Source: Sphingobium cloacae (lineage in GTDB: Bacteria; Pseudomonadota; Alphaproteobacteria; Sphingomonadales; Sphingomonadaceae). Taken from it: a stretch of DNA of 64,000 nucleotides. Where the stretch lies: NCBI RefSeq assembly GCF_002355855.1, contig NZ_AP017655.1:124001-188000 (forward strand). Direction: 5' to 3'. Below, one piece after another: positions 31,897-52,083 of this stretch. The notes under the pieces are model-generated. The model did not search any database. It worked only from the letters and a program-made list of their open reading frames with translations, and was not told the DNA's origin. How positions within the stretch are numbered: the first letter of the stretch is position 1; each line of letters opens with the position of its first letter. The position numbers and the translations under genes are program-made.

Positions 31897-32831
31897 CGGG
31901 GTAGCTCCAGTTCCTGTCCACTGTCCTTGGTGAGCGCACGGCGCGGATTCTGGCGTATTTCGCGCAAGAACCCATCGAGCGATTCGGATGTCTCCTGCAG
32001 GCTATGCATCGCGGCATTGACGGCGGGGAGGGTGGTCGTTCCGATTGTCTCGCTTTGCCGGTTGATATGGGCGAGGGTGCCGCGCGCTTCGCCGATTGCG
32101 GCCTTGAGCTCGGTCGCCGCCTCCGACATCTCCGCGAGTGTCCGGCGTCCGTCTCCCTCGCCCATTTCCCGAATGAGCGCCGCTGACGCTTCGATATCGG
32201 TGGCAGCGGAATCGAGTTTTGCCAGCATGGACCCGGCATGATCGAACATGGCGCGATTCTCGGCGAGCTCGCCCATGGTGAGACGTACATCCTTTATCGT
32301 CGCGCTCAGATCGGCGATGTTCTCGTCCGAGATGAGCTTGTTGACCTGGTTGAGCGCCCTGGTCGCGCTTTCGACCATCTGGCCGCCGCCCTGAATCAGC
32401 GACGACATGGCGTTCGGCTTGCTTCGAATAACAGGCCGGTGGGAGCGCTCGGCCTCGCGCAGGAGAGGCTGTTGCGGATCGCCCGCGCTGATCTGGACGA
32501 TACTCGTGCCGGAAATGCCTTGCGTTTCGGTGGATGCCAGAGAATCGCGGCGAACCGGCGTGCGTGCCTGCAGGGATATGTCGGTGATTACCCGGTTGGG
32601 ATTGTCTTCGTCGAGCCTGATCCGTTCGATCTGACCCATCTTGATACCGTTGAACTGGACATCCCCGCCCACGCTGAGGCCGCGAACAGGGCCCTCGAAG
32701 ATGATCCTGTATCGGTCATATTCATTGCTGAAACGCGATCCGCCCAGCCATACGACAAACACCACGCCGGCAATCAGCAGCAGTGTCGAGATGGCGCCTA
32801 CCAGCGCGTAATTGGCCTGCCGTTCCATCAA
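31893..32831 (-). CDS. mlaD: MlaD-type MCE protein
   Basis: 312 residues. One N-terminal membrane helix (ALVGAISTLLLIAGVVFVVWL, ~8-28) is followed by a single MCE domain (RYRIIFEGPVRGLSVGGDVQFNGIKMGQIERI, ~42-73) and a long helical C-terminal region (residues ~130-290). It binds phospholipid in the periplasm and feeds it to or from the MlaFE complex. E. coli MlaD is only ~183 residues; this longer alphaproteobacterial type with a coiled tail is common. It overlaps mlaF (ATGATGG start). Confidence 0.85.
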   Translation of the reverse strand: MMERQANYALVGAISTLLLIAGVVFVVWLGGSRFSNEYDRYRIIFEGPVRGLSVGGDVQFNGIKMGQIERIRLDEDNPNRVITDISLQARTPVRRDSLASTETQGISGTSIVQISAGDPQQPLLREAERSHRPVIRSKPNAMSSLIQGGGQMVESATRALNQVNKLISDENIADLSATIKDVRLTMGELAENRAMFDHAGSMLAKLDSAATDIEASAALIREMGEGDGRRTLAEMSEAATELKAAIGEARGTLAHINRQSETIGTTTLPAVNAAMHSLQETSESLDGFLREIRQNPRRALTKDSGQELELPR

Positions 32832-33616
32832 ATGCTATCCTGCTGTTCTGCCGCAGCGCGGCCGCGCGGCCCAAGGAAATAATCCCTGATCCAGGGATGA
32901 TCCGATTGCTCCAGCTCGTGAAGCGGGGCCGTGGTCACGATTTTTCGATCGGCGATGACGGCGACCCGATCACAGACCGCGTACAGCGTGTCGAGATCGT
33001 GGGTAATCATGAAGACCGTGAGGCCCAGCGTATCGCGCAGATCGCGGATGAGCGCGTCGAATTCTGCGGCGCCGATCGGGTCGAGACCTGCGGTGGGTTC
33101 ATCGAGAAACAATATGTCGGGATCAAGTGCGATCGCCCTTGCAACGCCAGCGCGCTTGCGCATGCCGCCCGACAGTTCGGCCGGACGAAGATCGGCGGCA
33201 TGGGCGGGAAGGCCGGCAAGCCTGATCTTGAGGCGCGCCGCTTCGCGCATGAACCCCGGCGCGAGGCGGGTATGCTCCAGCATCGGAGCCTCGACATTCT
33301 GAAGCACGGTCAGGAAGGAAAAGAGCGCGCCCTGCTGGAACATGACGCCGATGCGCCGTTGAACATCGCCCTGCGACCGGCCCATATCCTCACCGAAAAC
33401 TTCCACGTGTCCGGCGTCGGGCTGCTGAAGGCCAAGAATAGTGTTCAGAAGGACCGACTTGCCCGATCCAGAGCCGCCGACCACGCCCAGTATTTCACCA
33501 CGCCTGACTTCGAGATCAAGATTGTCGTGAATGACCTTGTCACCAAATGCGGTGCGCAGACCGGTCACCCGGATCGCGAGCGGATCGGCCAGACCGTTGT
33601 TCACGGACCCGCTCAC
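32828..33616 (-). CDS. mlaF: MlaF-type ABC ATPase
   Basis: 262 residues from GTG 33616, which overlaps the mlaE stop as GTGA. The open frame to 33751 is a shadow of mlaE. Walker A is GGSGSGKS (~47-54), the signature ELSGGMRKRAGVARA, and Walker B ILFLDEPTAGLD. It energises the MlaE permease for phospholipid movement across the inner membrane. Confidence 0.88.
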   Translation of the reverse strand: MSGSVNNGLADPLAIRVTGLRTAFGDKVIHDNLDLEVRRGEILGVVGGSGSGKSVLLNTILGLQQPDAGHVEVFGEDMGRSQGDVQRRIGVMFQQGALFSFLTVLQNVEAPMLEHTRLAPGFMREAARLKIRLAGLPAHAADLRPAELSGGMRKRAGVARAIALDPDILFLDEPTAGLDPIGAAEFDALIRDLRDTLGLTVFMITHDLDTLYAVCDRVAVIADRKIVTTAPLHELEQSDHPWIRDYFLGPRGRAAAEQQDSI

Positions 33617-34722
33617 AGGCCGAGCACCATGAAGATCACCGCAAAGATGGCATCGAACATGATAATGAGGAAAACAGACTGGACCACTGCGGACGTCACA
33701 TGACGGCCCAGACTCTGGACGTCTCCTCCCACCATCATTCCATGGCGGCACCCCGCGGCAGCGATCAGCAGGGCGAGGAACGGGGCCTTGCCCATGCCGA
33801 TCCAGAAATGCTTGATACTGACGGTTTCCGCGAGACGGGTGACGAAGAAGGAGGGGCTGATGTCGATGGTGGCCCAGCTTACGAGAAGCCCTCCCAGGAG
33901 TCCGCCCAGGTCGCCCACGAACGTCATGAGCGGAATCATGACGAGCGCGGCGAGGATACGGGGCGTGACGAGGGCATCGAACCGGTCGACACCCATGACC
34001 TGCATGGCGGCCACTTCCTGGTTCATCCGCATGGAGCCGATTTGTGCCGCGAAGGCAGAGGCCGAGCGGCCCGCCAGAAGAATAGCGGCGATGACGACGC
34101 CAAACTCCCTGAGGATTGCGACGCCCACAAGTTCGACGGTAAAAATCTCCACTCCGAGGCTGGTGAGGAGATTGGTGCCGACCAGTGCGATGATCGCACC
34201 GATGAAAAACGTCATGATGAAAACGATCGGCAAGGCATTGATGCCTGATTCTTGCATGACAGCGAATAGCGGTGTGACCCGCAATCGCCTGGGGCGTAAC
34301 AATGTGCCTCCAAGAGCAAGGATCATCTGACCGGTGAAAACCAGCATCGCATAGGCGTCGTGAGCGATTTCAATGATCTGCTGGCCGAAGCGCGCGAAGA
34401 ACCCGGTCAGGTAGCCACGGGGGGGCGGGCTATCCTCGTGAGGCGTCATGCCCGGCGCAACGAGGTTGGCCAGACGTCGCACATCGTCACGTGTGCCGAA
34501 CAGGATCTCGCCGTCGGTGGGCATCAGTTTAAGGAGCAGCAAGGCGCCGGTCGTGTCGATCCTCCCGAGGGCGGAGACGTCGATCCTGTTCGCCTGCTGT
34601 CCTCCCACAGCCGGCAGCGGCTGACGGCTCGCCTGGTCAAGGGTCAGGGCCGTCCAGTCGCCCTCGGCGTGGAGGGTCAAGGAACCGTCTTCTTCAACCA
34701 GCGTCCATGTCGCCGCCTTCAT
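33613..34722 (-). CDS. mlaE: MlaE-type permease with N-terminal STAS-like domain
   Basis: 369 residues. The first ~100 are a soluble STAS-like domain (IDVSALGRIDTTGALLLLKLM), which E. coli supplies as separate MlaB. The permease follows, with VIAAILLAGRSASAFAAQIGSMRMNQEVAAMQVMG, the conserved Mla EQ-loop region. STAS-permease fusions are usual in alphaproteobacteria. It overlaps the pldA stop as ATGA. Confidence 0.88.
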   Translation of the reverse strand: MKAATWTLVEEDGSLTLHAEGDWTALTLDQASRQPLPAVGGQQANRIDVSALGRIDTTGALLLLKLMPTDGEILFGTRDDVRRLANLVAPGMTPHEDSPPPRGYLTGFFARFGQQIIEIAHDAYAMLVFTGQMILALGGTLLRPRRLRVTPLFAVMQESGINALPIVFIMTFFIGAIIALVGTNLLTSLGVEIFTVELVGVAILREFGVVIAAILLAGRSASAFAAQIGSMRMNQEVAAMQVMGVDRFDALVTPRILAALVMIPLMTFVGDLGGLLGGLLVSWATIDISPSFFVTRLAETVSIKHFWIGMGKAPFLALLIAAAGCRHGMMVGGDVQSLGRHVTSAVVQSVFLIIMFDAIFAVIFMVLGL

Positions 34723-35936
34723 CGGATCAGCGCGATCCCGACGCGCAGACGCCTGGTGTTTCGATCATAGTCGAGGAGGTTTTCTCCATATCCGATGAAG
34801 CTCTGACCGAAGAGGTAGAAGTCCGGCCCGCCGCCCAGGATACGGCGGAGCGGATAGGACAGGTCGGCGGACAGCGCGCCCTTTCCGCTGCCGATATTGA
34901 AGCGGGTGGAGGTGGAGAGGCGCAGTCCATTATCCTCCCCGACCTCCATAAAAAGACCGGTGTTGCCGCGATACCGGCGTATGTCGGGATTGTCGGACTT
35001 GTCCCCGACGAAGAGGGAGAGGCGCGGCGCGATAGAGAGGCGATAGCCGCCGCCCAGCGGAATGGCGGCCATGGGCGCCAGATAGATGCTGTTGATGCTC
35101 CGCGAGGCCTCGCCGTCCCGGCCGTTGGACTCGTGCCGGATGCCACCCTGTGCGCTCAGGGACACGCCGCTCGCCAGTGTGGTCGAGGGCGTAAGATAGA
35201 ATATCTCGGGCTGGAAATCGATGTTCCGGAAAGGCGAGGAGTCCGCGCCCAGATCCCAGAACATGCGCTGCGTGTAGGCGAAATGGAGTCCATCGCGCCA
35301 GCTTTGCGGGAGACCTTCCGCGCGGCGGCTTCCGAACAACTGATATTTGAAGCTGAGCTGGATCCGGGCTTCGCTGTTGGTGTCCGGACCATAGACCGCA
35401 TAAATGGGTTCGTAGCCGGACAGGTTGGCGAGGAAGGCGTTGCCCGCCCTGCGATCCGAAGGCGGCGGTGTGGGAGCAGGGGCTCGCACAGGCGGAACCG
35501 GCGCAGGCGTGTGCGCCTCGGCGAGATGCGATGCCGGCGCCGCAGGGCGCGGTATCATGGCGATCTGGCTGACGTTCCAGGCGGGGATGGAAAGCCGGGC
35601 CAGGTCCAGGGATTGCCCATCACGGGCTGCCAGGCGGTAGCGGGCGCGCTCGAATCCGCGGGGCGCTATGATCACATGGTCCGCCACATCGCGGGCGCGC
35701 TCGAGCCAGACCGTCCGGATATCTCCCGACCGTTCGACCCGGGCCTCGATCCGATCAGGGAGCGCGAAGCTCTGCGGTTCATCGCCCTCGTTCAGCAAGC
35801 GCAGATCGACGAGCAAAGCGCCCTCTGCATCCTGTTCGCCCGCGTCCCGGACGAGCACCGCTACCGGCGCTGCCTGCGCCGCGGCGGGCACAAGGAGCGC
35901 TGTCGCCAGCAACCATCGGATAGACCGGTCCATCAT
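34719..35936 (-). CDS. pldA: Outer-membrane phospholipase A1
   Basis: 405 residues. There is a signal peptide (MMDRSIRWLLATALLVPAAAQA), a ~140-residue N-terminal region with a Pro-rich linker (PAPVPPVRAPAPTPPP), then a beta-barrel. The active-site motif GGIRHESNG (His ~266, Ser ~268) and the calcium-region SRSINSIY (Asn ~280) match PldA's His/Ser/Asn. It cleaves acyl chains from phospholipids that reach the outer leaflet. The N-terminal ‘extra’ domain is unlike E. coli PldA. It overlaps fabI and mlaE by 4 bases each. Confidence 0.82.
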   Translation of the reverse strand: MMDRSIRWLLATALLVPAAAQAAPVAVLVRDAGEQDAEGALLVDLRLLNEGDEPQSFALPDRIEARVERSGDIRTVWLERARDVADHVIIAPRGFERARYRLAARDGQSLDLARLSIPAWNVSQIAMIPRPAAPASHLAEAHTPAPVPPVRAPAPTPPPSDRRAGNAFLANLSGYEPIYAVYGPDTNSEARIQLSFKYQLFGSRRAEGLPQSWRDGLHFAYTQRMFWDLGADSSPFRNIDFQPEIFYLTPSTTLASGVSLSAQGGIRHESNGRDGEASRSINSIYLAPMAAIPLGGGYRLSIAPRLSLFVGDKSDNPDIRRYRGNTGLFMEVGEDNGLRLSTSTRFNIGSGKGALSADLSYPLRRILGGGPDFYLFGQSFIGYGENLLDYDRNTRRLRVGIALIR

Positions 35937-36706
35937 GCGAGAAGGTGCTGTCCGCCATCGACCGGGATCACCGTTCCGGTGATCCGGCTGGCTGCGTCAC
36001 TGACGAGGAAGGCAGCCAGCCCGCCGACATCCTCTATCGTCACCAACTGGCCGACCGGCGTCTGGGCGGCGGCGCGCTCGAGCAATTCATCGAACCGCGC
36101 GATGCCACTGGCGGCGCGGGTGGCGATAGGGCCCGGCGATATCGCATGGGCGCGGATGCCCTGGGGGCCCAGTTCGGCGGCGATATAGCGCGTCGCGCTC
36201 TCCAGCGCCGCCTTGACCGGTCCCATGAGGTTGTAGTTTTCAACGACGCGCTCCGAGCCGTAGAAGGTGACGCAGAGCAGGCAGCCGCCTTGCGCCATCA
36301 AGGGCTCGGCCAGCTTCGCCATGCGAAGGAAGCTGTGGCAGGAGACGTCCATCGCGATGCCGAACCCCTCGGCGCTGCTGTCGACGACGCGGCCATGGAG
36401 ATCGTCGCGGGGTGCGAAGGCGATCGAATGCAGCAGGAAGTCGAGTCCGCCCCATCGGTCCCGCACCTGGTCGAACAGGGCCTCGAGCTGGCCGGGCTCA
36501 CGCACATCGCAGGGGGCGAGCCATTCGGCGCCCAGCCGGTCCGCCACCGGCTCGACCCAGCCTTTCGCCTTCTCGTTCAGATAGGTCGCGGCAAGGCGCG
36601 CGCCGCAGCGGCTGAAAGCCTCGGCGCAGCCCGCTGCAATGCTCTGTTCGTTGGCGATACCGACGATCAGGCCACGCTTGCCGCGAAGATCGACGAGGGG
36701 GGTCAT
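35933..36706 (-). CDS. fabI: Enoyl-ACP/CoA reductase, FabI type
   Basis: 257 residues of the FabI short-chain reductase family. The nucleotide loop is GIANEQSIAAG (~16-26) and the active-site YNLMGPVKA gives Y~156-x6-K~163. FabI reduces the enoyl double bond using NADH. A second FabI on an accessory element is unlikely to be the essential copy; next to thiolase/PhaB/MaoC/Pta it could act on crotonyl-CoA (inference). FabI paralogues are also known to change triclosan tolerance, which is another possible benefit. It overlaps ackA and pldA. Confidence 0.85.
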   Translation of the reverse strand: MTPLVDLRGKRGLIVGIANEQSIAAGCAEAFSRCGARLAATYLNEKAKGWVEPVADRLGAEWLAPCDVREPGQLEALFDQVRDRWGGLDFLLHSIAFAPRDDLHGRVVDSSAEGFGIAMDVSCHSFLRMAKLAEPLMAQGGCLLCVTFYGSERVVENYNLMGPVKAALESATRYIAAELGPQGIRAHAISPGPIATRAASGIARFDELLERAAAQTPVGQLVTIEDVGGLAAFLVSDAASRITGTVIPVDGGQHLLA

Positions 36707-37893
36707 GTTTTAACTCCAAAAAGGGTGGCCAGTGTCTGCAGGACGATCATCCGTTCTTCGTCCGTCGGGATGACGCGGACGGTAATGGGGCTGCCAGGCG
36801 CGCTGATGACGTCGGCATGGACGGCATTGGCCCGCTCATCGAGGCTGATGTCGAGCCATGCGAGGCGCTCGCAGATGCCCGCGCGGATGGCGGCGTCGTT
36901 CTCGCCGATGCCGGCCGTGAAGACGAGACCGTCAAGGCCGCCCAGCGATGACGCCAGCGCGCCGGCCTCGCGCGCGGCACGCCAGATGAAGAGGTCGATG
37001 GCCTCGCGGGCTTCGGGCCGGTCGCTGGCCGCAAGCTCACGCATGTCGCTCGAGATGCCTGATACGCCCAGCAGGCCCGATTGCTTGTAGAGCAGCGCCT
37101 CCACATCGGCGGCGCTCATGCCCACCCGGTTCTGGAGATGCAGGATGACGCCAGGGTCGATCGACCCGCAGCGCGTGCCCATCATCAGGCCGTCGAGCGC
37201 GGTGAAACCCATCGTCGTGTCGATGCTCTTGCCGCCTGACATGGCGCACAGGCTTGCGCCGTTGCCCAGATGCGCGGCGATCACGCGGCCGGCGGCAAGC
37301 GATGGGTCGAGCTCTGCCAGGCGGCGGGCGATATAGTCGTAGGAGAGGCCATGGAAGCCGTAGCGCCTGATGCCCTGCTCGTGAAGTGCGCGCGGGAGCG
37401 CGAAGCGGGTGGCGGGTGCGGGGCGATCATGGTGGAAGGCGGTGTCGAAGCAGGCGACCTGGGGAAGGTCCGGCGCGAGCGCGGCGATCGCGCGGATGGC
37501 AGCCAGATTATGGGGCTGGTGGAGCGGGGCCAGTGGACAGAGCTTCTCAAGCTCCTCGAGCACTATGGTATCGATCAGGCACGACTGGGCGAAGTCGACC
37601 CCGCCGTGGACGACGCGGTGCCCGACGGCGAGGACTTCGCGCCCTTCGAGATGCGATGTGGCCCAGTCAAACAACCATGCGAGCAACTCTGCATGGGTCA
37701 TGGCGCGTTCGTCGGGCCACTCGCGTTCGATCAGCACTGTGCCTGCTGCGTCGCGAATGGCGAGGCGGGGAGAAAGACCGATCCGTTCGATCTTGCCGCC
37801 GGCGGACAATGTCGGTTTGCGGTCGCGATCGAGCGTATAGAGCGCGAACTTGATGCTGGACGAGCCCGAATTGAGGCTGACGACGGCCTTCAT
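36703..37893 (-). CDS. ackA: Acetate/butyrate-type kinase
   Basis: 396 residues from ATG 37893 (MKAVVSLNSGSSSIKFALYT). The upstream frame to 38247 is a shadow of the Pta gene. Motifs: the N-terminal NSGSSSIKF phosphate loop, then GHRVVHGGVDF, PLAPLHQPHNLAAI and AHLGNGASLCAM (~205-216). It converts acyl-phosphate plus ADP to carboxylate plus ATP. Whether it prefers acetyl- or butyryl-phosphate cannot be told from sequence. Start overlaps the stop of the Pta gene. Confidence 0.88.
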   Translation of the reverse strand: MKAVVSLNSGSSSIKFALYTLDRDRKPTLSAGGKIERIGLSPRLAIRDAAGTVLIEREWPDERAMTHAELLAWLFDWATSHLEGREVLAVGHRVVHGGVDFAQSCLIDTIVLEELEKLCPLAPLHQPHNLAAIRAIAALAPDLPQVACFDTAFHHDRPAPATRFALPRALHEQGIRRYGFHGLSYDYIARRLAELDPSLAAGRVIAAHLGNGASLCAMSGGKSIDTTMGFTALDGLMMGTRCGSIDPGVILHLQNRVGMSAADVEALLYKQSGLLGVSGISSDMRELAASDRPEAREAIDLFIWRAAREAGALASSLGGLDGLVFTAGIGENDAAIRAGICERLAWLDISLDERANAVHADVISAPGSPITVRVIPTDEERMIVLQTLATLFGVKT

Positions 37894-39311
37894 GTGCGCA
37901 TACCCTCCGGCAGGCCGGGCGCCGCCTTGGTCGCCGCGCGCGCTACCAGCACGGCAACGGCGCAGGAAGCAAGGCGCGTGCGCAGGCTGTCGGCCCGGCT
38001 GGTGAGGATGATCGGCACACGCGCACCCAGCACGATGCCTGCCGCATCCGCCCCGCCGAGGAAGGTGAGCTGCTTGGCGAGCATGTTGCCCGCCTCCAGA
38101 TCGGGTACGACCAATATGTCCGCCTTGCCCGCGACGGGCGACACGATCCCTTTTTCCTTCGCGGCCGCCTCGCTGATCGCATTGTCGAAGGCGAGCGGGC
38201 CATCGAGGAGGCCGCCCGTGATCTGGCCCCGGTCGGCCATCTTGCACAGCGCGGCAGCATCGAGCGTGGTCGGCATCGCCGGGTTCACCGTCTCGACAGC
38301 GGACAGGATCGCGACCCTGGGTTGGCCGATGTCCAGCACATGGGCAAGATCGATGGCGTTGCGGATGATATCCGCCTTTTCTTCAAGGTTCGGCGCGATG
38401 TTGATCGCCGCGTCGGTGATGATGAGCGGCGTCGGATGGCCGGGCACGTCCATCACATAGGCATGGCTGATCCGCCGTTCGGTACGCAGGCCCGTCGCGC
38501 GCGACACGACCGCGCCCATCAATTCGTCGGTATGCAGCGATCCCTTCATGAGCAGCACCGCCTCGCCGGCCCGCACCAGTTCGACGGCCTTCGCCGCCGA
38601 ATCATGGCTGTGCGCGCTTTCCACGATGCGATAGGCCGCCACATCCTTGCCGGCCTCGGCCGCCGCTGCAAGAATGCGGGCCCTCGGTCCCACCAGGATC
38701 GGATCGATCAGCCCTGCCTCGGCGGCCTCGACCGCTGCCGCCAGCGCGGCGGCCGAACAGGGGTGAGCGATGGCGGTGCGCGCGGGGTTGCCGCGCACGC
38801 CCTCGATCAACCGATGATAGCCGTCATGGTCTGACAGGCGGATATCGGGGAGCGCGATGCGCGGGCGGCGGATCTTCTCGGTGGGGGCCTTGACCTGCGC
38901 TTCGCCGGTGATGACGGTCTCGCCATTCTGATTGTCGCAGCGGCAGTCGAGCAGCAGGATATGCTTGTCCGCCCGCTTTTCCGTCACCGTCACCGTCGCG
39001 GTGATGGCGTCGCCGATGCCCACGGGCCTCAGGAACCGCAGCGACTGGCCGAGATAGATGGCACCGGGGCCGGGCAGTTCGGTCCCGAGCACCGCCGATA
39101 TCAGCCCGCCGCCCCACATGCCGTGCGCGATCACCCGGCGGAAGAAGTCGCTTTCGGCATAATCCTCGTCCAGATGGGCCGGATTGACGTCGCCCGACAC
39201 CAGCGCGAAGAGCTGGATATCGCGCTTGGAGAGCGTGCGGGTCACGCTCGCGCTTTCGCCCACGGCGATCTCGTCGAAGGTCCGGTTTTCGATCATGGCC
39301 TCATCGGTCAT
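37890..39311 (-). CDS. MaoC (R-enoyl-CoA hydratase)–phosphotransacylase fusion
   Basis: 473 residues. Residues 1-~150 are a MaoC-like hotdog domain (FDEIAVGESASVTRTLSKRDIQLFALVSGDVNPAHLD; the D-x-N-x-x-H motif DVNPAH holds the catalytic residues). From ~160 a phosphate acetyl/butyryltransferase domain follows (EAGLIDPILVGPRARI; later EKADIIRNAIDLAHVLDIGQ and LDGPLAFDNAISEAAAKEKGI). Such bifunctional enoyl-CoA hydratase/phosphate acyltransferases are known. It would hydrate or dehydrate (R)-3-hydroxyacyl-CoA and exchange CoA for phosphate. Overlaps ackA; 3 bases after phaC. Confidence 0.85.
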   Translation of the reverse strand: MTDEAMIENRTFDEIAVGESASVTRTLSKRDIQLFALVSGDVNPAHLDEDYAESDFFRRVIAHGMWGGGLISAVLGTELPGPGAIYLGQSLRFLRPVGIGDAITATVTVTEKRADKHILLLDCRCDNQNGETVITGEAQVKAPTEKIRRPRIALPDIRLSDHDGYHRLIEGVRGNPARTAIAHPCSAAALAAAVEAAEAGLIDPILVGPRARILAAAAEAGKDVAAYRIVESAHSHDSAAKAVELVRAGEAVLLMKGSLHTDELMGAVVSRATGLRTERRISHAYVMDVPGHPTPLIITDAAINIAPNLEEKADIIRNAIDLAHVLDIGQPRVAILSAVETVNPAMPTTLDAAALCKMADRGQITGGLLDGPLAFDNAISEAAAKEKGIVSPVAGKADILVVPDLEAGNMLAKQLTFLGGADAAGIVLGARVPIILTSRADSLRTRLASCAVAVLVARAATKAAPGLPEGMRT

Positions 39312-39314
39312 GGC

Positions 39315-41072
39315 TCAGCGCTCCAGGACATAATGGCCGGGCGCGTCCGCGATCGGCGCATAGCCTTTGTCCGCGGCGCCCATGGACGGCGGGGCCCCGG
39401 GCGCGCCCGAACGGCTTGCAAGCCAGTCGCCCCATTCGGTCCACCAGGAACCCTGCTTCTTCTCTGCGTGGCGTTCCCATTCCTCCGGATCGTAGGAGAG
39501 ACCATCGGTTTCGCGCGTCAGCACGCGGTAGCGCCGGCCGTTGTGGCCCGGTTCCGAGACGATACCGGCATTATGGCCGCCGCTCGTCAGCACGAAGGTG
39601 ATCTCGGCCCCGGTCAGCAGGTGGATCTTATGCACCGAATGCCAGGGCGCGACATGATCGCGCTCGGTGCCGACGACGAACAACGGTCTGCGGATCGCCG
39701 AGAGCGCGATGGTGCGACCATTGACCTTGTATTTGCCCTCGGCCAGGTCATCGTCGAGGAACAGGCGCCGCAGATACTGGCTGTGCATGGCATAGGGCAT
39801 GCGCGTCCCGTCGGCGTTCCAGGCCATGAGGTCGTTGAGAGGCGCGCGCTCGCCCATCAGATATTCCGACAGGATGCGCGACCAGACGAGGTCGTTGGAT
39901 TTGAGGATCTGGAACGCGCCGCCCATCTGGCCGCTGTCGAGATAGCCCCGGCTCCACATCATCTTTTCGAGGAGATTGAGCTGTCCCTCATCGATGAAGA
40001 GGCCCAGTTCGCCCGGTTCGCTGAATTCGGTCTGCGCCGCGAAAAGCGTCACGCTGGCAAGGCGATCGTCACCCTCGCGCGCCATCGTCGCCGCTGCGAT
40101 CGAGAGCAGCGTGCCGCCTAGGCAATAGCCCACGGCATGAACGGCGGGCGCGCCGGTAATCGCGCTCACCGCATCGAGCGCCGCCATCGGCCCGAGTTGC
40201 CGATAGGCCTCCATGTCGAGGTCGCGGTCCTCGCTGTCCGGATTGTGCCAGGAGATCATGAACACGGTGAAGCCCTGGGACGTCAGCCACTGGACGAGGC
40301 TGTTCTCGGGCGAGAGGTCGAGGATGTAATATTTCATGATCCATGCCGGCACGATCAGGATCGGCTCGGGCCGCACCGTGTCGGTGGTGGGGGCGTACTG
40401 GATCAGTTCGATGAGGCGGTTGCGATAGACGACCTTGCCCCTGGCGGTCGCCACCGTCTCCCCCACGCGGAAGGCGTCCGTGCCCGCCGGAGGCAAGCCT
40501 CTTACGAGATGCTGCATATCCTCGATCAGATGGCGGAACCCGTCGACCAGGCATTGGCCGCCGGTCTCGACGATCTTGCGCTGGAGAACCGGGTTGGTCG
40601 TAAGGAAGTTGGTCGGCGCAAGGATATCGAGCATCTGTCTGGCGGTGAATTCGACCATGTCCTCATGATGGCTGCCGACGCCGCCCACCCCGGTTGTCGC
40701 CGCGTGCCACCATTGCTGGTTGAGAAGGAACGCCTGCGAGAGGAGGTTGAAGGGCGGCTGCTGCCAGGCGGGATCGGCAAAGCGGCGGTCCTGCGGCAGC
40801 GGCTCGATCACGGGCGCCGCGTCGCGGTCGCCTGCGGATCGGACGGCATAGTCGAAGAGCCGCACATATTTGCGGGCCGCCTTGGCGGTGAGTTGCAGCT
40901 GCTTGCCCGGTGCGAAGGCGAGATGATGTCCCCAGTCCGAAAAGGCCTGGAGGATGGTGATGGGGGAGAGCCCCGCGGTCATCTGCGCGATCGCGGCGCC
41001 CGCGGCCCTGTCGAGGGTTTCGGCGATCCCGTCGAGCGGGTCGGGTGCCTGGGGCATGTTCTGGGCGCTCAT
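39315..41072 (-). CDS. phaC: Class I poly(3-hydroxyalkanoate) synthase
   Basis: 585 residues, usual class I length. The lipase-like box is GYCLGG with active-site Cys near 317. Later VGTERDHVAPWHS and SGGHNAGIVS supply Asp and His. It polymerises (R)-3-hydroxyacyl-CoA, mainly 3-hydroxybutyryl-CoA, at granule surfaces. About 110 bases separate it from the ABC ATPase upstream, the largest gap in this operon, so an internal promoter is possible. The phasin is encoded separately at 46233. Confidence 0.92.
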   Translation of the reverse strand: MSAQNMPQAPDPLDGIAETLDRAAGAAIAQMTAGLSPITILQAFSDWGHHLAFAPGKQLQLTAKAARKYVRLFDYAVRSAGDRDAAPVIEPLPQDRRFADPAWQQPPFNLLSQAFLLNQQWWHAATTGVGGVGSHHEDMVEFTARQMLDILAPTNFLTTNPVLQRKIVETGGQCLVDGFRHLIEDMQHLVRGLPPAGTDAFRVGETVATARGKVVYRNRLIELIQYAPTTDTVRPEPILIVPAWIMKYYILDLSPENSLVQWLTSQGFTVFMISWHNPDSEDRDLDMEAYRQLGPMAALDAVSAITGAPAVHAVGYCLGGTLLSIAAATMAREGDDRLASVTLFAAQTEFSEPGELGLFIDEGQLNLLEKMMWSRGYLDSGQMGGAFQILKSNDLVWSRILSEYLMGERAPLNDLMAWNADGTRMPYAMHSQYLRRLFLDDDLAEGKYKVNGRTIALSAIRRPLFVVGTERDHVAPWHSVHKIHLLTGAEITFVLTSGGHNAGIVSEPGHNGRRYRVLTRETDGLSYDPEEWERHAEKKQGSWWTEWGDWLASRSGAPGAPPSMGAADKGYAPIADAPGHYVLER

Positions 41073-41186
41073 GATCGGTCCTTTTTGAAGATTTCCATTA
41101 CAGGGCGGCTACCGGTCGGGCCGTTGCCCGGGGAGGCAAAGCTGCGGCAAAAGGCCGCTGTCGCCCTTGAGAACAGAGAAAGAAAA

Positions 41187-42044
41187 TCAATCCTCATAAT
41201 TCTCTCCCAGGTACAGACGACGGACTTCGTCATGGTGAAGAAGCTCTTGCGGCTTGCCCACGAAAAGCACCTTGCCGCCGTGGATGACATAGGCGCGGTC
41301 GACCAGTTCGAGCATCTCATGGACGTTATGGTCGGTGATGAGGACGCCGACGCCACGCCTTTTGAGATCGCGGACCATGAGCTTGATGTCCGCGATCGAA
41401 ATGGGATCGATCCCGGCGAAAGGCTCGTCGAGCAGGATCACGCCAGGCTCGGCCGCCAGGGCGCGCGCGATCTCGCAGCGCCGCCGCTCGCCGCCGGACA
41501 GGGAAGGGGAGGGTGTCGACCGCAGATGCGTCAGGCCGAAATCGGCAAGCAGTTCGCCCAGCCGGCGGTCGATGTCGCCAGGGTCGGTCATGCGCAGTTC
41601 CAGCACAGAGCGGATGTTGTCCGCAACGCTCATCCCGCGAAAGATCGAGGCTTCCTGCGGCAGATAGCCAAGCCCGCGGTTGCCGCGCTCATGCATGGCC
41701 AGTGCTGAGACATCTTCGCCGTCGAGCAGTATACGACCGCCATCGAGGCGTATGAGACCCATGATCCCGTAGAAGCAGATCGTCTTGCCTGTGCCGTTGG
41801 GGCCGAGCAGGCCAACGATCTCGCCGCGATCGACCTCGAGCGAGAAGCCGTCCAGCACCTTTCGCCGTCCGAACGCTTTCTCGATCGCCTGGACTTTGAG
41901 CGCGGGCGGGCCGACCACCGACACCGACCCGGAGGTGTCCAGCCTGGCGCAGTCAACGCCTTCGCGGCAGGCTGATGGAGTGTCGGCAATGCGGCAGGCG
42001 CTGTCATCGAGCATCGTCAGAGGCCCGGCGCGGCACATTCGCAT
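41187..42044 (-). CDS. LptB-like ABC ATPase inside the PHA operon
   Basis: 285 residues if started at ATG 42044; 42014 is an alternative, and the open frame up to 42170 overlaps the thiolase gene and is a shadow. Walker A is GPNGTGKT, the signature SLSGGERRRCEIARAL, and Walker B VILLDEPFAGIDPI. The C-terminal YLGENYED resembles LptB, the LPS-export ATPase, as does GVGVLITDHNVHEMLEL. A ~50-residue N-terminal extension is unusual. No permease partner is adjacent, so it might pair with MlaE, chromosomal LptFG, or have a new partner. Confidence 0.75.
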   Translation of the reverse strand: MRMCRAGPLTMLDDSACRIADTPSACREGVDCARLDTSGSVSVVGPPALKVQAIEKAFGRRKVLDGFSLEVDRGEIVGLLGPNGTGKTICFYGIMGLIRLDGGRILLDGEDVSALAMHERGNRGLGYLPQEASIFRGMSVADNIRSVLELRMTDPGDIDRRLGELLADFGLTHLRSTPSPSLSGGERRRCEIARALAAEPGVILLDEPFAGIDPISIADIKLMVRDLKRRGVGVLITDHNVHEMLELVDRAYVIHGGKVLFVGKPQELLHHDEVRRLYLGENYED

Positions 42045-42075
42045 GAGAATCGCCGCCGCGCCGTGCCGCTCGTGA

Positions 42076-43260
42076 TCATGCCATCGCCTCCAGGGCGAGG
42101 GCCACGCCCTGGCCGCCGCCGATGCACAAGGTGACAACGCCCCGGCGCAGCCCGTCGCGCCGCATCGCATGCAGCAGGCGGGTGGTCAGCACGGCACCGG
42201 TCGCCCCGATCGGATGGCCATGCGCGATGGCGCCGCCTTCCACATTGACGATGTCCTCAGGGAGGCCGAGTTCCTGCGTGACCGCGATGGCGATGGCCGC
42301 GAAAGCCTCGTTGATCTCGACGCGATCGAGGTCTCCGACCGACCATCCCGCCCGCTCGAGCGCCTGCCGGACGGCGGGCACCGGCCCGAGGCCGAAGAGG
42401 CCGGGGGCGACCGCGCCGACACCGAACGCGACGAGGCGCCCCAGGGGCGTCACGCCATTGCGCTGCGCCCATTGCTCGTTCGCGACGATCATCGCGGACG
42501 CGCCGGTGTTGAGGCCGGGCGCATTGCCCGCCGTGATGGTGCCTTCCGGTCGGAAGGCAGGCTTTAGACGCGCGAGGCTCTCAAGGCTCGTATCGGCCCG
42601 GTTCTGCTCATCTTTTGCAAAGAGCGTCACAGCCTTGCGAGAAGGAATCTCGACAGGCACGATCTCCGCCTCGAACCGGCCATTGGCCTGGGCCGCGCTG
42701 AAACTCTGCTGCGAGCGCAACGCCCAGCCATCCTGCGCCTCCCGGCTGATGCCGAACTGTGCGACCAGATCCTCGGTGACCCAGCCTGAATGCTGATTGC
42801 TGAAGGCGTCATTCAGCCCGTCATGGAGCATGGCGTCGAGGAGTTTGCCCTCGCCCATACGATAGCCCCAGCGTCCCTTCTCGATGAGATAGGGCGCCTG
42901 GTCCATATTCTCCATGCCGCCGGCGATCACGGCCTGGCCAAGGCCGAGCATGATCTCCTGGGCGGCCGAGGCGATCGCCTGTGCGCCCGATCCGCAGACC
43001 CGGTTGACGGTCATGGCAGGAGCACTGTCGCGTAACCCCGCGTTGATGGCGGCCTGGCGGGCAGGGTTCATCTTCGCGCCTGCCTGGACCACCTGTCCCA
43101 TGACGACGCTGTCGATATTGTCAGCGCCCACGCCCGCGCGCCTGAGCGTTTCGGCGATGGCGACGCTGCCGAGCGCGGGCGCTTTCATGTCCTTGAGCGC
43201 GCCGCCATAGGCGCCGATGGGCGTGCGAACCGGGGCGCACAGAACGACAGGACTGGTCAT
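42076..43260 (-). CDS. phaA: Acetyl-CoA acetyltransferase (beta-ketothiolase)
   Basis: 394 residues from ATG 43260 (MTSPVVLCAPVRTPIGAYGG). The nucleophile Cys is in NRVCGSGAQAIASA (~Cys 88), and the late GHPIGATGA and CIGGGQGVA motifs carry the catalytic His and Cys. It condenses two acetyl-CoA into acetoacetyl-CoA. The open frame to 43713 is a shadow of phaB. Located 23 bases downstream of phaB. Confidence 0.9.
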   Translation of the reverse strand: MTSPVVLCAPVRTPIGAYGGALKDMKAPALGSVAIAETLRRAGVGADNIDSVVMGQVVQAGAKMNPARQAAINAGLRDSAPAMTVNRVCGSGAQAIASAAQEIMLGLGQAVIAGGMENMDQAPYLIEKGRWGYRMGEGKLLDAMLHDGLNDAFSNQHSGWVTEDLVAQFGISREAQDGWALRSQQSFSAAQANGRFEAEIVPVEIPSRKAVTLFAKDEQNRADTSLESLARLKPAFRPEGTITAGNAPGLNTGASAMIVANEQWAQRNGVTPLGRLVAFGVGAVAPGLFGLGPVPAVRQALERAGWSVGDLDRVEINEAFAAIAIAVTQELGLPEDIVNVEGGAIAHGHPIGATGAVLTTRLLHAMRRDGLRRGVVTLCIGGGQGVALALEAMA

Positions 43261-43283
43261 GAGAATAATCCTTCCACGCATTT

Positions 43284-44006
43284 TCAGGCGAGATACTTGC
43301 CGCCGTTGATCGAGAGGGTGGCGCCGGTCACGAAACCGGCCTCGTCCTCGACAAGATAGAGCACGCCGCGCGCGATTTCCTGCGGCGTGCCGAGCCGGCC
43401 GACCGGCACCGCGGCCAGCACCGCCTCGAGCGCGTCCTGCGGCACCGCGGCGACCATGCCGGTATCGGTATAGCCCGGCGCAATCGCATTGACCGTGATG
43501 TTTCGAGACGCGCCTTCCAGTGCCAGCGCCTTGGTGAAGCCGATCACGCCTGCCTTGGCCGCTGCATAGTTGGTCTGGCCAAATTGTCCTGAAAGACCGT
43601 TTACCGAGCTGATATTGACGATCCGTCCGAACCGGCGCTCGCGCATGCCCTCGATCACGGCACGGCACATGTTGAAGCAGCCGCCCAGATCGACGTCGAC
43701 GACGCTGCGCCATTGCTCCTCGGTCATCTTGTGCAACGTGCCGTCGCGCGTGATGCCGGCATTGTTGACCAGAATGTCGATGGGGCCGATGTCTGCCGCA
43801 ACCTTCGCCACGCCGTCATGACAGGCGGAGAAATCGGCTACATTCCAGTTGTAGATCGGGATCGAGGTTTCCGCGAGGAATCGCTCGGCATCCTCGTCAT
43901 TGCCATGATAATTGACGGCAACGCGATAGCCTTTGTCGCGGAGGAGCATTGCGGTCGCCGCGCCTATTCCGCTGACGCCGCCGGTAACGAGTGCGACTCT
44001 GGGCAT
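43284..44006 (-). CDS. phaB: Acetoacetyl-CoA reductase (copy 1)
   Basis: 240 residues of the PhaB short-chain dehydrogenase type: VTGGVSGIGAA at the N-terminus, LVNNAGITRDGTLHKM, NISSVNGLSGQFGQTNYAAAKAG with Y-x-x-x-K. It reduces acetoacetyl-CoA to (R)-3-hydroxybutyryl-CoA with NADPH or NADH. It is the first gene of the minus-strand operon. A close paralogue lies divergently at 45421. Confidence 0.9.
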   Translation of the reverse strand: MPRVALVTGGVSGIGAATAMLLRDKGYRVAVNYHGNDEDAERFLAETSIPIYNWNVADFSACHDGVAKVAADIGPIDILVNNAGITRDGTLHKMTEEQWRSVVDVDLGGCFNMCRAVIEGMRERRFGRIVNISSVNGLSGQFGQTNYAAAKAGVIGFTKALALEGASRNITVNAIAPGYTDTGMVAAVPQDALEAVLAAVPVGRLGTPQEIARGVLYLVEDEAGFVTGATLSINGGKYLA

Positions 44007-44573
44007 GACATCATCCTTTGGCCTTCAATAGTCGCCATGGGCGCCTGGGCCGCACGGCGGGAAGTGGCGCATGCGCTATGCCGCGATGCGCCTGGTCGAA
44101 GTCTCTCCCGATATGATTCGGCCCCTGTCATGGCCGATTTAGTCGTGCCTGATCTCGCTGTGAGGGAGCGGCGGCGCCATTAGGAACTATACTTAGAAGT
44201 TTCGTATTTGATCGTCAAACGGCTTTGCGTGTCGCGACGATTTGCCATGACATGCGAGGGTCTTGGGCGGGCGCCTGCCGGCGCGAATCAGGTCGCCGCT
44301 CCCTGGGCCGCCGGGGGGCGCGGACGTTGAAGCTCCTGGACCCATTCAGCATAATCGGTCGAACGCACAGTCCGGACGACGATCGGTGCGAGCGGAAGGG
44401 TTGCGCCGCGGCTGCCTGAATACCCTGGAACCTGGGGGCTGCGACCAGGCCGGGGCTAACGGTCGAAGCAACGCCGTCCATCGACAGGCGAAAACAAGGG
44501 CGTCGCGCGTTCGGTCCTGGGCCCTCGTCCTGTCAATGCCTCGGACAGAACGGAGCGCTGGCGGACATCGCAA
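44007..44573. promoter_or_regulatory. Gene-free region upstream of the minus-strand pha operon
   Basis: It should hold the promoter for the 12-gene operon. On the minus strand TTGACG (44218-44213) is followed 17 bases later by TAAGTATAG (44195-44187), the same TAAGTATAG that precedes the second phaB. TTTGATCGTCAAA at about 44207-44219 is a small dyad. No convincing gene is visible in the rest. Confidence 0.4.
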
Positions 44574-45285
44574 TCACCTTTTGGGTGCGTGTTGCAATTC
44601 AGGTTCGAGGAGCGGAACTGCCCGTGCCAGCAGATCCATGGTCTGGGCGAGATGTTCGGTCTTGGCCCGAGCTGTGTTGGCAAGATCCTTTCGTAACAAT
44701 ATTCTCGCGCGCGGACCGGTCACCGTTGCATCGAAGATGAACGCTGCCAGAAAGGGCAGATCCTCTTCTATGTTGCGCACACGCGCCTCCTCCGTCAGCA
44801 GATCCTGGATCAATGAGGCGCCGGGGTTGCGATGAATACTGAGCTGCGCCTCGAGCTTGCGTTCGAAAATCCAGGTCGCGAGTGTCTCGATGCCAATGAC
44901 CTCGGGTTTGAGCGCAGCGTCGAGCATCTTGCGGCAAAGCTTCAGGAGCCGATTGCGTAGGTCTCCCTGATCGCCGGTCGACGGTAATCGCTTTGAGATG
45001 GCGCTGGGTGCCGTGCTCGGCACTGGCGATCAGAAGCTGGGTTTTCGATCCGTAACGCGAATAAAGCGTGCGCTTGGAGACGTTCGCGGCCGCGGCAATG
45101 TCATCCATGTTGGCGCCTTCCACCCCATGGGCGATGAACTGGTCGAGCGCGACCTGCAATATATGCTCGCCCAATTGCGCGGCTATTTCCTGCGGCGGCC
45201 GTCCGCCTTTTGGATCGCGCGGCGCCAGCTTGTGTCGAGGTGATCGGCGGCTTGTCACCTTTTTGTCATTACCTTCCTTTTTCAT
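44574..45285 (-). pseudogene. TetR-family regulator split by a frameshift
   Basis: The N-terminal frame from ATG 45285 (MKKEGNDKKVTSRRSPRHKL) has a Lys/Arg-rich tail and a normal HTH: GVEGANMDDIAAAANVSKRTLYSRYGSKTQLLIASAEHG. Around 44985 sense passes to another frame reading GDQGDLRNRLLKLCRKMLDAALKPE to a stop at 44574. One frame change of a single base would restore a ~237-residue TetR. It is either a recent mutation that would free the pha genes from control, or a sequencing error. It sits between the two pha units and shares the intergenic region with phaB2. Confidence 0.65.
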
Positions 45286-45342
45286 GCGGGCCAAAGACCG
45301 CACTTGATCCGGGGCGGGAAAGCGGCAATAACGACACTCATA

Positions 45343-45354
45343 AGTATAGATACT
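45343..45354. promoter_or_regulatory. Dyad AGTATAGATACT, candidate TetR operator
   Basis: Perfect 5-bp arms about AG, between the divergent tetR and phaB2 starts. The preceding TAAGTATAG also occurs upstream of the minus-strand phaB. Confidence 0.45.
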
Positions 45355-45420
45355 AATAGTCCGGAGAGGCGCGACGGGGGAAACCGCGCGGCGTGACCTG
45401 AAAAATGGAGCCGGAGTATC

Positions 45421-46149
45421 ATGACGGGAATTGCACTCGTAACTGGGGGAACACGTGGAATCGGCGCGGCAATCGCCCGGTCGCTCAAAGCAGCGGGATG
45501 GAATGTTGCCAGCATATATCATGGAAACGACGCCGCCGCCGAGCTGTTCCGGGATGGTACGGGCATTCCCGTCTATAAATGGGACGTCGCGGAGGAACAG
45601 GCCTGCCGCGAAGGCCTGGCCCGCGTGGAAAAGGAACTGGGCCCGGTTTCAGTGCTGGTGAACAATGCCGGCATCACGCGCGACACCATGTTCCATCGGA
45701 TGAGCTTTGCGCAGTGGCGCGAGGTTCTTGGCACCAACCTCGACTCGATGTTCACAATGACGCGCGCCGTCATCGAAGGCATGCGCGAACGCCGCTTTGG
45801 CCGGATCATCAATATCTCCTCGATCAACGGCCAGAAGGGCCAGATTGGCCAGGTGAACTATTCGGCGGCCAAGGCGGGTGTGATCGGCTTCACCAAGGCG
45901 CTGGCGCAGGAAAATGCGTCGCGCGGCATCACGGTCAACGCCGTATGCCCCGGCTATATCGACACCGAGATGGTCGCTGCCGTGCCGCAGGATGTCCGCG
46001 AAAAGATCATCGGCGGCATTCCCGTCGGGCGCCTGGGCGATCCGGCTGAAATCGCCGAAGCCGTTTGTTGGCTGGCCTCGGACAAGGCCGGTTTCAATAC
46101 CGGCTCGGTGCTCACGATCAATGGCGGGCAATATATCGCCAACGGCTGA
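45421..46149 (+). CDS. phaB: Acetoacetyl-CoA reductase (copy 2)
   Basis: 242 residues with ALVTGGTRGIGAAIARSL, LVNNAGITRDTMFHRM and NISSINGQKGQIGQVNYSAAKAG (Y-x-x-x-K). It is clearly paralogous to copy 1, with the same length and motifs. GGAG (GAGCCGGAGTATC) lies upstream of ATG 45421. It leads the plus-strand unit with the phasin; two reductases may differ in cofactor or expression. Confidence 0.88.
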   Translation: MTGIALVTGGTRGIGAAIARSLKAAGWNVASIYHGNDAAAELFRDGTGIPVYKWDVAEEQACREGLARVEKELGPVSVLVNNAGITRDTMFHRMSFAQWREVLGTNLDSMFTMTRAVIEGMRERRFGRIINISSINGQKGQIGQVNYSAAKAGVIGFTKALAQENASRGITVNAVCPGYIDTEMVAAVPQDVREKIIGGIPVGRLGDPAEIAEAVCWLASDKAGFNTGSVLTINGGQYIANG

Positions 46150-46763: not shown

Positions 46764-48257
46764 GTGCGATTTACTGATCAAGTCCATATGAAAGGGTGGC
46801 GCCTGCCGTGCTTTCCCCTGCGGCCGAGGACCGCTGTTGTCGCCGCTTTGATGGTGGGTGTGACCGGCTGCTCTTTTGCGCCTGAGCATGTCCGGCCACC
46901 CCAGCCGGTGCCGCCGACCTACGAGGCGGCCAACATCGCCGGGACCACGATCGCGCGCATCGGTTGGCACGACTTCTTCCGGGAAGCCGAGTTGCAGCGG
47001 CTGATCGGCGAGGCGCTCGCGAACAATCGCGATATCCGCATCGCGGCGACCCGCGTCGCCGAGGTCCGCGCCGCCTGGCGGATCGAGGGCTCCTCGCTCT
47101 ATCCGCAGCTCGATGCGGTCGGCACGGGAACGCGGGGCCGGACCCTGTTCAATCTCCCCGGCGCGGGCGCTACGCCTGTCGATGTCAAACAGATCAGCGC
47201 GCAGCTCTCGGCCAGTTGGGAGATCGACTTCTGGGGACGGCTGCGCAACCTGCGCGATGCCGCGCGCTGGCAGTATCTGGCGACCGAGGAAGCGCGCCGC
47301 GCGGTCGCGAGCCAGCTCGTCGCGCAGGTCGCCAACGGCTATCTTCTCGAACGGGAATATGAGGAACGGGTCGCACTCGCCCGGCACTCGATCGAAACGC
47401 GCGAGGAAGCGCTGCGCATCATGCGCCGCCGCTATGAGGTGGGATCGGGATCGAAGCTCGAGATGACCCAGGCGCAGCTGCTCCTGGGCCAGGCCAATAC
47501 GACGATGCAGGGGCTGGAGCAGGACCGGGCCGTCAACCGCAATGCTCTTGCGGTGCTGATCGGGCGGCCTGTCGAGATCGCGTCCGGGACCCTGTCTCTG
47601 ACCGACGTGCCCGAACGGCTCACGCTGCCTGCCGGGCTGCCCTCCGACCTTCTGGCCAACCGCCCGGATATCGTGGCGTCCGAATATCAGCTGCGCGCCG
47701 CCAGCGCCAATATCGGCGCGGCGCGGGCGGCCTTTTTTCCGAACATCAGCCTGACGGGCGCATACGGCACGATGAGCGATGAGTTGGACGGGCTGTTCTC
47801 CGGCGGCAGCGAGGCGTGGAGCTTCACCCCGACCATCCGCCTTCCGCTTTTCAACGCGGGACGCCTGAAGGGCAATCTCGACGTGGCCAGGGCCCGGCAG
47901 GAACGGGCGGTCGCGCAATATGAACAGACCGTGCAATCGGCGTTCCGCGACGTGTCCGATGCCCTTGTCCGCCGGCAGCAGTTGCAGCTGCAGATCGACA
48001 CGACACAGCAGATGCTGGACGCCCAGCGCGAACGCGCGCGGCTCGCCCAGCTTCGCTTCGACAATGGCCGCTCGGCCTATCTGGAGGTGCTGGATGCCCA
48101 GCGCGACCTGTTCGACGCCGAACAGGCCCTGGTCCAGCTTCGGCGGGCCGAACTGGCCAGCATCGTCGTACTTTATTCGGCGCTGGGCGGAGGATTTGTC
48201 GCGGACGACGCCTTCGACGGCAACCTATCGAACAGAAACGGGGAACAGTCACAATGA
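46764..48257 (+). CDS. Outer-membrane efflux lipoprotein (OprM/NodT type)
   Basis: 497 residues from GTG 46764, which has AGGGG 5 bases upstream; ATG 46788 is the alternative. The lipobox is MVGVTGCSF (Cys ~33). Two TolC-like repeats follow, with the usual SWEIDFWGRLRN and RPDIVASEYQLRAASANIG motifs. It forms the outer-membrane channel of a tripartite pump with the HlyD and ABC proteins encoded next; it overlaps HlyD by 4 bases. Confidence 0.88.
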   Translation: MRFTDQVHMKGWRLPCFPLRPRTAVVAALMVGVTGCSFAPEHVRPPQPVPPTYEAANIAGTTIARIGWHDFFREAELQRLIGEALANNRDIRIAATRVAEVRAAWRIEGSSLYPQLDAVGTGTRGRTLFNLPGAGATPVDVKQISAQLSASWEIDFWGRLRNLRDAARWQYLATEEARRAVASQLVAQVANGYLLEREYEERVALARHSIETREEALRIMRRRYEVGSGSKLEMTQAQLLLGQANTTMQGLEQDRAVNRNALAVLIGRPVEIASGTLSLTDVPERLTLPAGLPSDLLANRPDIVASEYQLRAASANIGAARAAFFPNISLTGAYGTMSDELDGLFSGGSEAWSFTPTIRLPLFNAGRLKGNLDVARARQERAVAQYEQTVQSAFRDVSDALVRRQQLQLQIDTTQQMLDAQRERARLAQLRFDNGRSAYLEVLDAQRDLFDAEQALVQLRRAELASIVVLYSALGGGFVADDAFDGNLSNRNGEQSQ

Positions 48258-49330: not shown

Positions 49331-49334
49331 GCCG

Positions 49335-52082: not shown

Positions 52083-52083
52083 C

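Follow-up and report, generated by a model that had tools for sequence, protein, structure and literature searches.

What pathway is encoded by a run of poly-3-hydroxybutyrate (PHB) genes that also carries a phosphotransacylase, an acyl kinase, and an enoyl reductase? The run in question lies in a 64,000-nt stretch of the Sphingobium cloacae genome (contig NZ_AP017655.1, positions 124,001 to 188,000), referred to here as the window, and spans 44006 to 31267 on the minus strand (all positions are those of the window unless a locus is named). A sequence-only reading had proposed that six genes at 36703..44006 form a branch from acetyl coenzyme A (acetyl-CoA) to butyrate, with polyhydroxyalkanoate (PHA) as a side product, and this interpretation is partly supported by the present analysis. 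The reading favored here, to which we give a probability of about 0.42, is a PHB module for stress or low oxygen whose acyl-phosphate exit conserves energy. The genes were called by searches of the window proteins with family models (TIGR/NF models and Pfam), and scores in bits are given against the model cut-off.

43284..44006, minus strand: phaB, acetoacetyl-CoA reductase (TIGR01829, 335 bits, cut-off 302)
42076..43260, minus strand: thiolase of the BktB/PhaA type, start at 43260 (TIGR01930, 436 bits, over the cut-off; best model BktB NF006552, 449 bits, below the cut-off of 565)
41187..42044, minus strand: accessory copy of an LptB-family ABC ATPase, start uncertain (TIGR04406, 327 bits, cut-off 240)
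39315..41072, minus strand: phaC, PHA synthase (TIGR01838, 560 bits, below the cut-off of 623; PF07167 [PhaC_N] and PF12551 over the cut-off)
37890..39311, minus strand: (R)-enoyl-CoA hydratase (MaoC/PhaJ) fused to a Ptb-like phosphotransacylase (NF006045, 756 bits, cut-off 282)
36703..37893, minus strand: acetate/propionate-family kinase (TIGR00016, 367 bits, cut-off 293; NF005462, 485.9 bits, cut-off 486)
35933..36706, minus strand: FabI-like enoyl reductase of the PRK07533 clade (NF005717, 426 bits, cut-off 337)
34719..35936, minus strand: pldA-like outer-membrane phospholipase A, its start overlapping the fabI stop (PF02253 [PLA1], 136 bits)
33613..34722, minus strand: MlaE permease (PF02405, 216 bits; TIGR00056, 198 bits, below the cut-off of 212)
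32828..33616, minus strand: MlaF-like ATPase (ABC_tran; best model MlaF NF008809, 173 bits, below the cut-off of 441)
31893..32831, minus strand: MlaD domain protein (PF02470)
31267..31896, minus strand: ABC auxiliary lipoprotein (PF03886)

All six genes proposed earlier are real and co-directional, and their families were confirmed by the models, so that every enzyme class of a chain from acetyl-CoA to a free acid is present. The FabI gene lies outside the span first given, and the earlier gene list had omitted the LptB-like ATPase between the thiolase and PhaC as well as the downstream phospholipase A and Mla genes. The window phaC, fusion, kinase, and FabI genes are adjacent, as in the published phaC-phaJ/pta-ack-fabI clusters. 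The stop of each gene overlaps the start of the next at every junction from phaC through mlaE, except for a 3-nt gap between phaC and the fusion gene, an arrangement that fits a single transcript from phaC onward. The 114-nt gap ahead of phaC leaves room for a second promoter, and phaB, the thiolase gene, and the lptB-like gene could therefore be a separate unit. The LptB-like ATPase gene sits within the PHB run, and another stands beside a sister cluster of the host genome (L112); besides the window copy, the host genome contains two LptB matches in all, the best of which (359 bits) scores above the window copy.

The window FabI belongs to a clade of 64 distinct rows and one divergent row, which is split from 60 housekeeping FabI rows, including that of Escherichia coli, with a support of 100/100. 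Identical rows were removed (129 to 125 in total and 68 to 64 in the clade). The clade set was defined by an identity to the window FabI of 50% or more, whether or not a row has a neighboring cluster, and the housekeeping rows are mostly the top-scoring loci of two models, plus three from the genome co-occurrence scan and E. coli, which was entered in duplicate in the tree but counted a single time. Row L151 was housekeeping by identity at first and was reassigned since the tree places it inside the clade. The catalytic Tyr156 and Lys163 are retained in 64 of 64 clade rows. The residue at E. coli position 204 is acidic in 60 and basic in none of the 65 clade rows (Asp 55, Glu 5, Asn 4, and Ala 1), whereas it is basic in 54 and acidic in none of the 60 housekeeping rows (Arg 51, Lys 3, Gly 3, Asn 2, and Ser 1). 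Position 195 is Arg in 65/65 clade rows and Leu in 60/60 housekeeping rows; both columns were kept in the alignment used for the tree. The mean net charge of residues 196 to 212, calculated before L151 was reassigned, was -2.2 in the clade versus +0.8 in the housekeeping rows.

The 2006 work of Rafi is said to give Arg204 of E. coli FabI a role in docking the acyl carrier protein (ACP). Its neighbor Lys205 is important for enoyl-ACP reduction (PMC6199490, citing Rafi 2006). The loss of the basic residue at 204 in a distinct clade thus suggests that the window FabI clade gave up ACP docking and that a CoA thioester is its likelier substrate. The chemistry is feasible, as the ACP-dependent FabI of E. 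coli is reported to sustain reverse beta-oxidation with CoA thioesters (PMC9118988). FabI had been named the weakest step of the butyrate proposal, a weakness that is eased by the distinct clade, the changed ACP-docking helix, and the E. coli precedent. The host genome encodes a separate housekeeping FabI (L169) and three FabI of the PRK07533 clade; the copy in sister cluster L113, on a 375-kb contig (10142-10900, plus strand), contains an in-frame stop. No crotonyl-CoA carboxylase/reductase (Ccr) over the cut-off was found in the host genome (best score, 83 bits; cut-off, 379), and Bcd/Etf were not searched for. With rather less than even odds, the PRK07533 clade may be a dedicated trans-2-enoyl-CoA (crotonyl-CoA) reductase that was derived from FabI by loss of ACP docking and that, in aerobic proteobacteria, would fill the reductive gap in an ATP-yielding branch of PHB metabolism running as reverse beta-oxidation when oxygen is limiting.

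The transacylase domain of the fusion is of the Ptb rather than the Pta type. It scores 308 bits with the Ptb model TIGR02706 (below the equivalog cut-off of 410) versus 73 bits with the Pta model TIGR00651, and its nearest solved structure is the Ptb 7vg9 (234 bits), compared with 56 bits for the best phosphotransacetylase. The active-site residues Asp282 and Asp316 distinguish the two types, as described from the Ptb of Clostridium acetobutylicum (PMC9706017). The Ptb-type Asp282 is found in 98 of 101 transacylase rows, an Asp at the Pta Asp316 position is found in none, and two rows have no motif. Among solved structures, those most similar to the hydratase domain are (R)-specific enoyl-CoA hydratases, with 5cpg the closest, which is consistent with the stereochemistry for which the sequence-only reading had argued. 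The strict hydratase-2 motif is present in 75 of 96 full-length fusions. In the kinase pocket, a proline is replaced by alanine in 91 of 102 rows. The meaning of the valine and proline positions of this pocket reportedly comes from work on Methanosarcina acetate kinase. Domains of the transacylase type can act on acetyl- or butyryl-CoA (PMC12568896), and for the kinase and transacylase of the window, use of acetyl, propionyl, and butyryl groups all appear possible.

The distribution of these genes was analyzed in the neighborhoods of 80 named loci, the best of at least 590 confirmed fusion relatives, many of which have short flanks. The kinase was found near the fusion in 78 loci, which indicates that the linkage is not due to chance, and phaC and window-type FabI were found in 38 and 33, respectively; phaC, kinase, and FabI occurred together in 24. 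The counts were 50, 26, and 25 for kinase, phaC, and FabI in the 51 loci with at least 8 kb upstream and at least 5 kb downstream. The conserved linkage for which the sequence-only reading suggested a genome search holds for this core, though not for phaB and the thiolase (see below). Phospholipase A was found near the fusion in 3 and mlaE/mlaF in 1 of the 80 loci. In the loci analyzed, the core has a wide distribution, and a single run holding all genes from acetyl-CoA to acyl-phosphate was seen only among sphingomonads. Across 299 genomes of the phylum, the transacylase was over the cut-off in 22 of 26 genomes with window-type FabI versus 26 of 273 without it (Fisher P = 2.4e-16, which is overstated since several of the 22 genomes come from one genus and relatedness was not corrected for). 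Window-type FabI was called at 370 bits or more, a threshold that we set at the gap between 378 and 345; the NCBI cut-off of 337 would give 30 FabI genomes, with some rows being housekeeping by the tree. In 17 of the 22 genomes, the two genes share a contig and are no more than 12 kb apart; in the other 5, they lie on different contigs.

From the gene content and coupling, the FabI clade and its residues, the Ptb-type transacylase, and the co-occurrence, we infer the substrate, direction, and conditions of the pathway as follows. The thiolase and PhaB would make (R)-3-hydroxybutyryl-CoA, which PhaC would polymerize under excess reductant and carbon. Part of it would be turned into crotonyl-CoA by the hydratase domain, and the FabI-like enzyme, having lost its ACP-docking charge, would use a second reductant to turn enoyl groups carried on CoA into butyryl-CoA. 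Together, the kinase and the Ptb-like domain would then convert acyl-CoA to the free acid and ATP, probably accepting acetyl-CoA as well as C3-C4 acyl-CoA.

The host genome contains four fusion-bearing clusters, namely, that of the window and L111, L112, and L113. Their PhaC proteins are 83% (L112), 73% (L111), and 69% (L113) identical to the window copy, which marks the clusters as diverged paralogues. L111 is neighbored by genes encoding NorB, alternative oxidase, an Rrf2 regulator, a PAS kinase with response regulators, and Usp. L112 has phospholipase A after the kinase and no FabI, together with the divergent LptB-like gene, a TetR gene, and exporter genes. L113 is preceded by copper-related genes and followed by F-type ATPase genes. 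Genome G057 has five clusters with a full-length fusion match and a partial sixth. The closest named relative of the window fusion protein is from a Sphingobium, and the next best are mostly from sphingomonads. The fusion family has a patchy distribution: a match over the cut-off of the fusion model was found in 12 of 99 genomes of the host's family, with the sole genome of the same genus having none.

At L113, DNA of Sphingobium soli and Sphingomonas leidyi matches 17.5 kb at identities of 96.7 and 97.2%, and that of S. adhaesiva matches 11 kb at 99.7%; this region, with its copper-related genes, was probably transferred recently. On plasmid pF1 of S. yanoikuyae (L212), whose fusion is 86.5% identical to that of the window, the cluster lies between two identical insertion sequence copies.

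L212 476-1240 and 17091-17855: IS6100 copies on pF1, flanking a TetR-phaC-fusion-kinase-fabI-pldA unit, exporter genes, and phbB

The near-identity of L113 to other sphingomonad DNA and the IS6100-flanked cluster of pF1 make it very likely that the PHB/acyl-phosphate module moves.

The conditions under which the module operates may be read from the DNA upstream of phaB and from the neighbors of related clusters. The following features adjoin the PHB genes in the window.

44179..44195, minus strand: palindromic putative operator upstream of phaB, TAAGTATAGTTCCTAAT
45341..45357, plus strand: second copy of the putative operator, upstream of phaB2, TAAGTATAGATACTAAT
44583..45204, minus strand: TetR-family regulator in two frames (tblastn with the S. 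yanoikuyae pF1 TetR gives two pieces in different frames)
45421..46149, plus strand: second phaB-like reductase (phaB2) in a divergent unit (PF13561, PF00106)
48254..53211, plus strand: HlyD/RbbA/ABC-2 exporter (RbbA NF033858, 1543 bits, cut-off 1050; HlyD and ABC-2 by clustering with scanned representatives)

The two putative operator copies match at 15 of 17 bases. The pattern derived from them occurs once in a related cluster of G057 (L114) and in none of the remaining loci of the 211 searched; its printed chance expectation of 0.01 is no independent test, as the pattern was derived from its own two copies. The PHB genes of the window may be controlled by the adjacent TetR regulator. The TetR gene is located between the two putative operators, and its pF1 relative is in one frame. 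Its split in the window may be either a sequencing error or a real lesion.

Judged by the neighbors of the sister and related clusters, the setting may be respiratory stress or scarce oxygen, NorB and alternative oxidase being encoded beside L111. With neighboring genes assigned through clusters of which one or a few members had been scanned, class II ribonucleotide reductase was found in 11, F-type ATPase subunits in 7, and the ABC-2 permease of the RbbA-type exporter in 13 of the 80 named loci. The loci with the class II (B12-dependent) ribonucleotide reductase are L057, L070, L082, L085, L089, L090, L092 (the scanned representative), L099, L100, L101, and L105; it lies near the fusion and kinase, in loci that are betaproteobacterial as far as their titles say. 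An FNR-type box was found upstream of 10 of 76 fusion operons; among the remaining operon starts of these loci, the figure was 15 of 444 (P = 0.0013). An upstream region was obtained for 76 of 90 loci, a simple script assigned the operon starts, and every locus counted equally irrespective of relatedness; this stricter comparison replaced a first estimate against shuffles (10/76; shuffle mean, 0.12). A study of the low-oxygen lxa locus of Burkholderia cenocepacia found phbB and a phosphate acetyl/butyryl transferase to increase in concert in its isolates (PMC6127331), and a phaC2 of Bradyrhizobium, which may or may not belong to a cluster of this kind, is a FixK2 target (PMC10888616). For the cluster family, as distinct from the window copy, low oxygen is the favored trigger. 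The phbB and transferase locus numbers in B. cenocepacia presumably lie within lxa. Direct FNR control of the window copy was considered and dropped, as the box count is at chance and no box lies upstream of the operon.

Several observations weigh against this interpretation. With respect to the trigger, no FNR-type box was found upstream of the window operon (the window has 3 matches with at most one mismatch versus 3.8 expected) or upstream of the three sister clusters, and the window copy may instead be under the TetR regulator. Other triggers have been published: the Sinorhizobium meliloti relative is induced by phosphate starvation (Summers 1999, cited in PMC8231600), and pta-ackA-fabI genes are upregulated about 2-fold with Mimosa root exudates (PMC5789663). 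With respect to the reductase, absence of a basic residue at 204 is only a proxy for lost ACP use, since 6 of the 60 housekeeping rows also lack one, and 4 of the 26 genomes have window-type FabI without the transacylase. As for butyrate as the product, the transacylase agrees with the original proposal but the kinase lends it no support: it fails the butyrate kinase (Buk) model TIGR02707 (39 bits; cut-off, 289) and is of the acetate/propionate type, with the pocket valine (alanine in E. coli TdcD) present in 102 of 102 rows. The PhaJ-like domain of Paraburkholderia is nearer to PhaJ2 (C6-C10) than to the C4-C6 enzymes, while the discussion of the same 2025 paper gives C4-C8 (PMC12568896). In 11 of the 22 genomes with both genes, the transacylase is not fused to a MaoC domain, and a strict C4 interpretation is less convincing there. 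Finally, phaB and thiolase genes are found near the fusion in only 1 of the 80 named loci (L038, Sphingobium sp. TCM1), plus the G057 clusters L114 and L115.

The kinase also speaks for an acetate module, in which the transacylase and kinase interconvert acetyl-CoA and acetate, either as overflow with ATP gain or as uptake for PHA, while MaoC supplies (R)-3-hydroxyacyl-CoA to PhaC and FabI serves fatty acid synthesis. The enzyme keeps the pocket valine of acetate kinases and scores over an acetate/propionate kinase cut-off, and all 4 matches to the acetate kinase family found in the host genome lie inside the four fusion clusters, which suggests that the clusters probably cover acetate too. 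The 1999 work of Summers reportedly included activity assays on S. meliloti pta/ackA. Acetate use is close to the published readings for Burkholderia (PMC8231600) and Cobetia (PMC8686332), and the S. meliloti relatives were named pta and ackA (Summers 1999, as cited in PMC8231600). However, it explains neither why a genome with a housekeeping FabI should also carry a FabI of a dedicated clade that lacks the ACP-docking charge nor why the transacylase is of the Ptb rather than the Pta type, and we regard it as rather unlikely.

If the acid is instead taken up, the kinase and transacylase would activate short acids, phospholipase A and Mla would tie the module to membrane turnover, and the hydratase would feed PHA. 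The presence of pldA and mla genes in the same run and the acetate use proposed for Cobetia (PMC8686332) fit such salvage, but FabI in the reductive direction would oppose uptake, phospholipase A releases long-chain acids, and the rarity of pldA and mlaE/mlaF among the 80 loci marks the lipid genes as a lineage add-on; this direction is improbable. A shorter route would have the Ptb-like domain act on 3-hydroxybutyryl- or crotonyl-CoA, releasing 3-hydroxybutyrate or crotonate with ATP from the kinase and no FabI step. Ptb-Buk pairs have been used in engineered E. coli to release 3-hydroxybutyrate, and the hydratase-transacylase fusion would place crotonyl-CoA beside the transacylase. Such direct release would nevertheless leave the linked FabI without a role, and we consider it slightly more improbable still.

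If the FabI-dependent step exists, it may bear on other organisms. Ralstonia eutropha H16 at low aeration makes butyryl-CoA, and the responsible crotonyl-CoA reductase was not identified in a 2024 study (PMC10788006). Should the cluster FabI perform a step of this type, a recurrent "enoyl-ACP reductase" annotation would gain a new function, aerobes would acquire a redox outlet that resembles butyrate formation and yields ATP, and a reductase would become available for copolymer engineering. A FabI encoded beside phaC, pta, and ack would then not necessarily serve fatty acid synthesis, which calls for caution in annotation.

The phaC-(phaJ/pta)-ack-fabI linkage has already been published and was read as acetate metabolism or PHA-monomer supply (PMC8231600, PMC8686332, and PMC12568896). 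Among the matches listed in the open-licence PMC literature, the available excerpts contain no statement of a butyrate branch for such clusters or of a CoA-specific FabI. The phaC groups D1 and D2 of Burkholderia sensu lato have the core in common with the window, the fusion included (phaC, the phaJ/pta fusion, ackA, and fabI, with phaB in some) (PMC8231600 and PMC12568896). Compared with these groups, for which the published role is in acetate or PHA metabolism, the window run adds the thiolase, the LptB-like ATPase, phospholipase A, and Mla, and the host has four clusters. The PhoB-controlled ORF-pta-ack-fabI operon of S. meliloti has the transacylase, kinase, and FabI in the same order as in the window (Summers 1999, cited in PMC8231600 and PMC5789663); its first ORF shares 2 to 24% identity with Burkholderia group D1 products (PMC8231600), and the available descriptions of the operon name no MaoC domain. 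The phaC1-fabI-(bi-pta)-ackA cluster of Cobetia and Halomonas encodes the same enzymes in a different order; the accessible text names no adjoining thiolase, phaB, or lipid genes, and one strain of Cobetia lacks bi-pta and ackA but has fabI (PMC8686332). The lxa locus of B. cenocepacia is likened to the window by description, phbB being a few locus numbers from the phosphate acetyl/butyryl transferase; the terms acetate kinase and enoyl reductase are absent from the main text of that paper (PMC6127331), and strain H111 is without lxa (PMC3759415).

The window run also resembles the clostridial butyrate branch in proceeding from acyl-CoA through acyl-phosphate to acid and ATP with a Ptb-type transacylase. 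The clostridial branch uses Ptb-Buk with Bcd/Etf. The window has the (R) rather than the (S) isomer, a FabI-like enzyme rather than Bcd/Etf, and an acetate-type kinase rather than Buk. What is new here is the separation of the window FabI clade, with its changed residue 204, from the housekeeping enzymes, whereas the cluster linkage itself was known.

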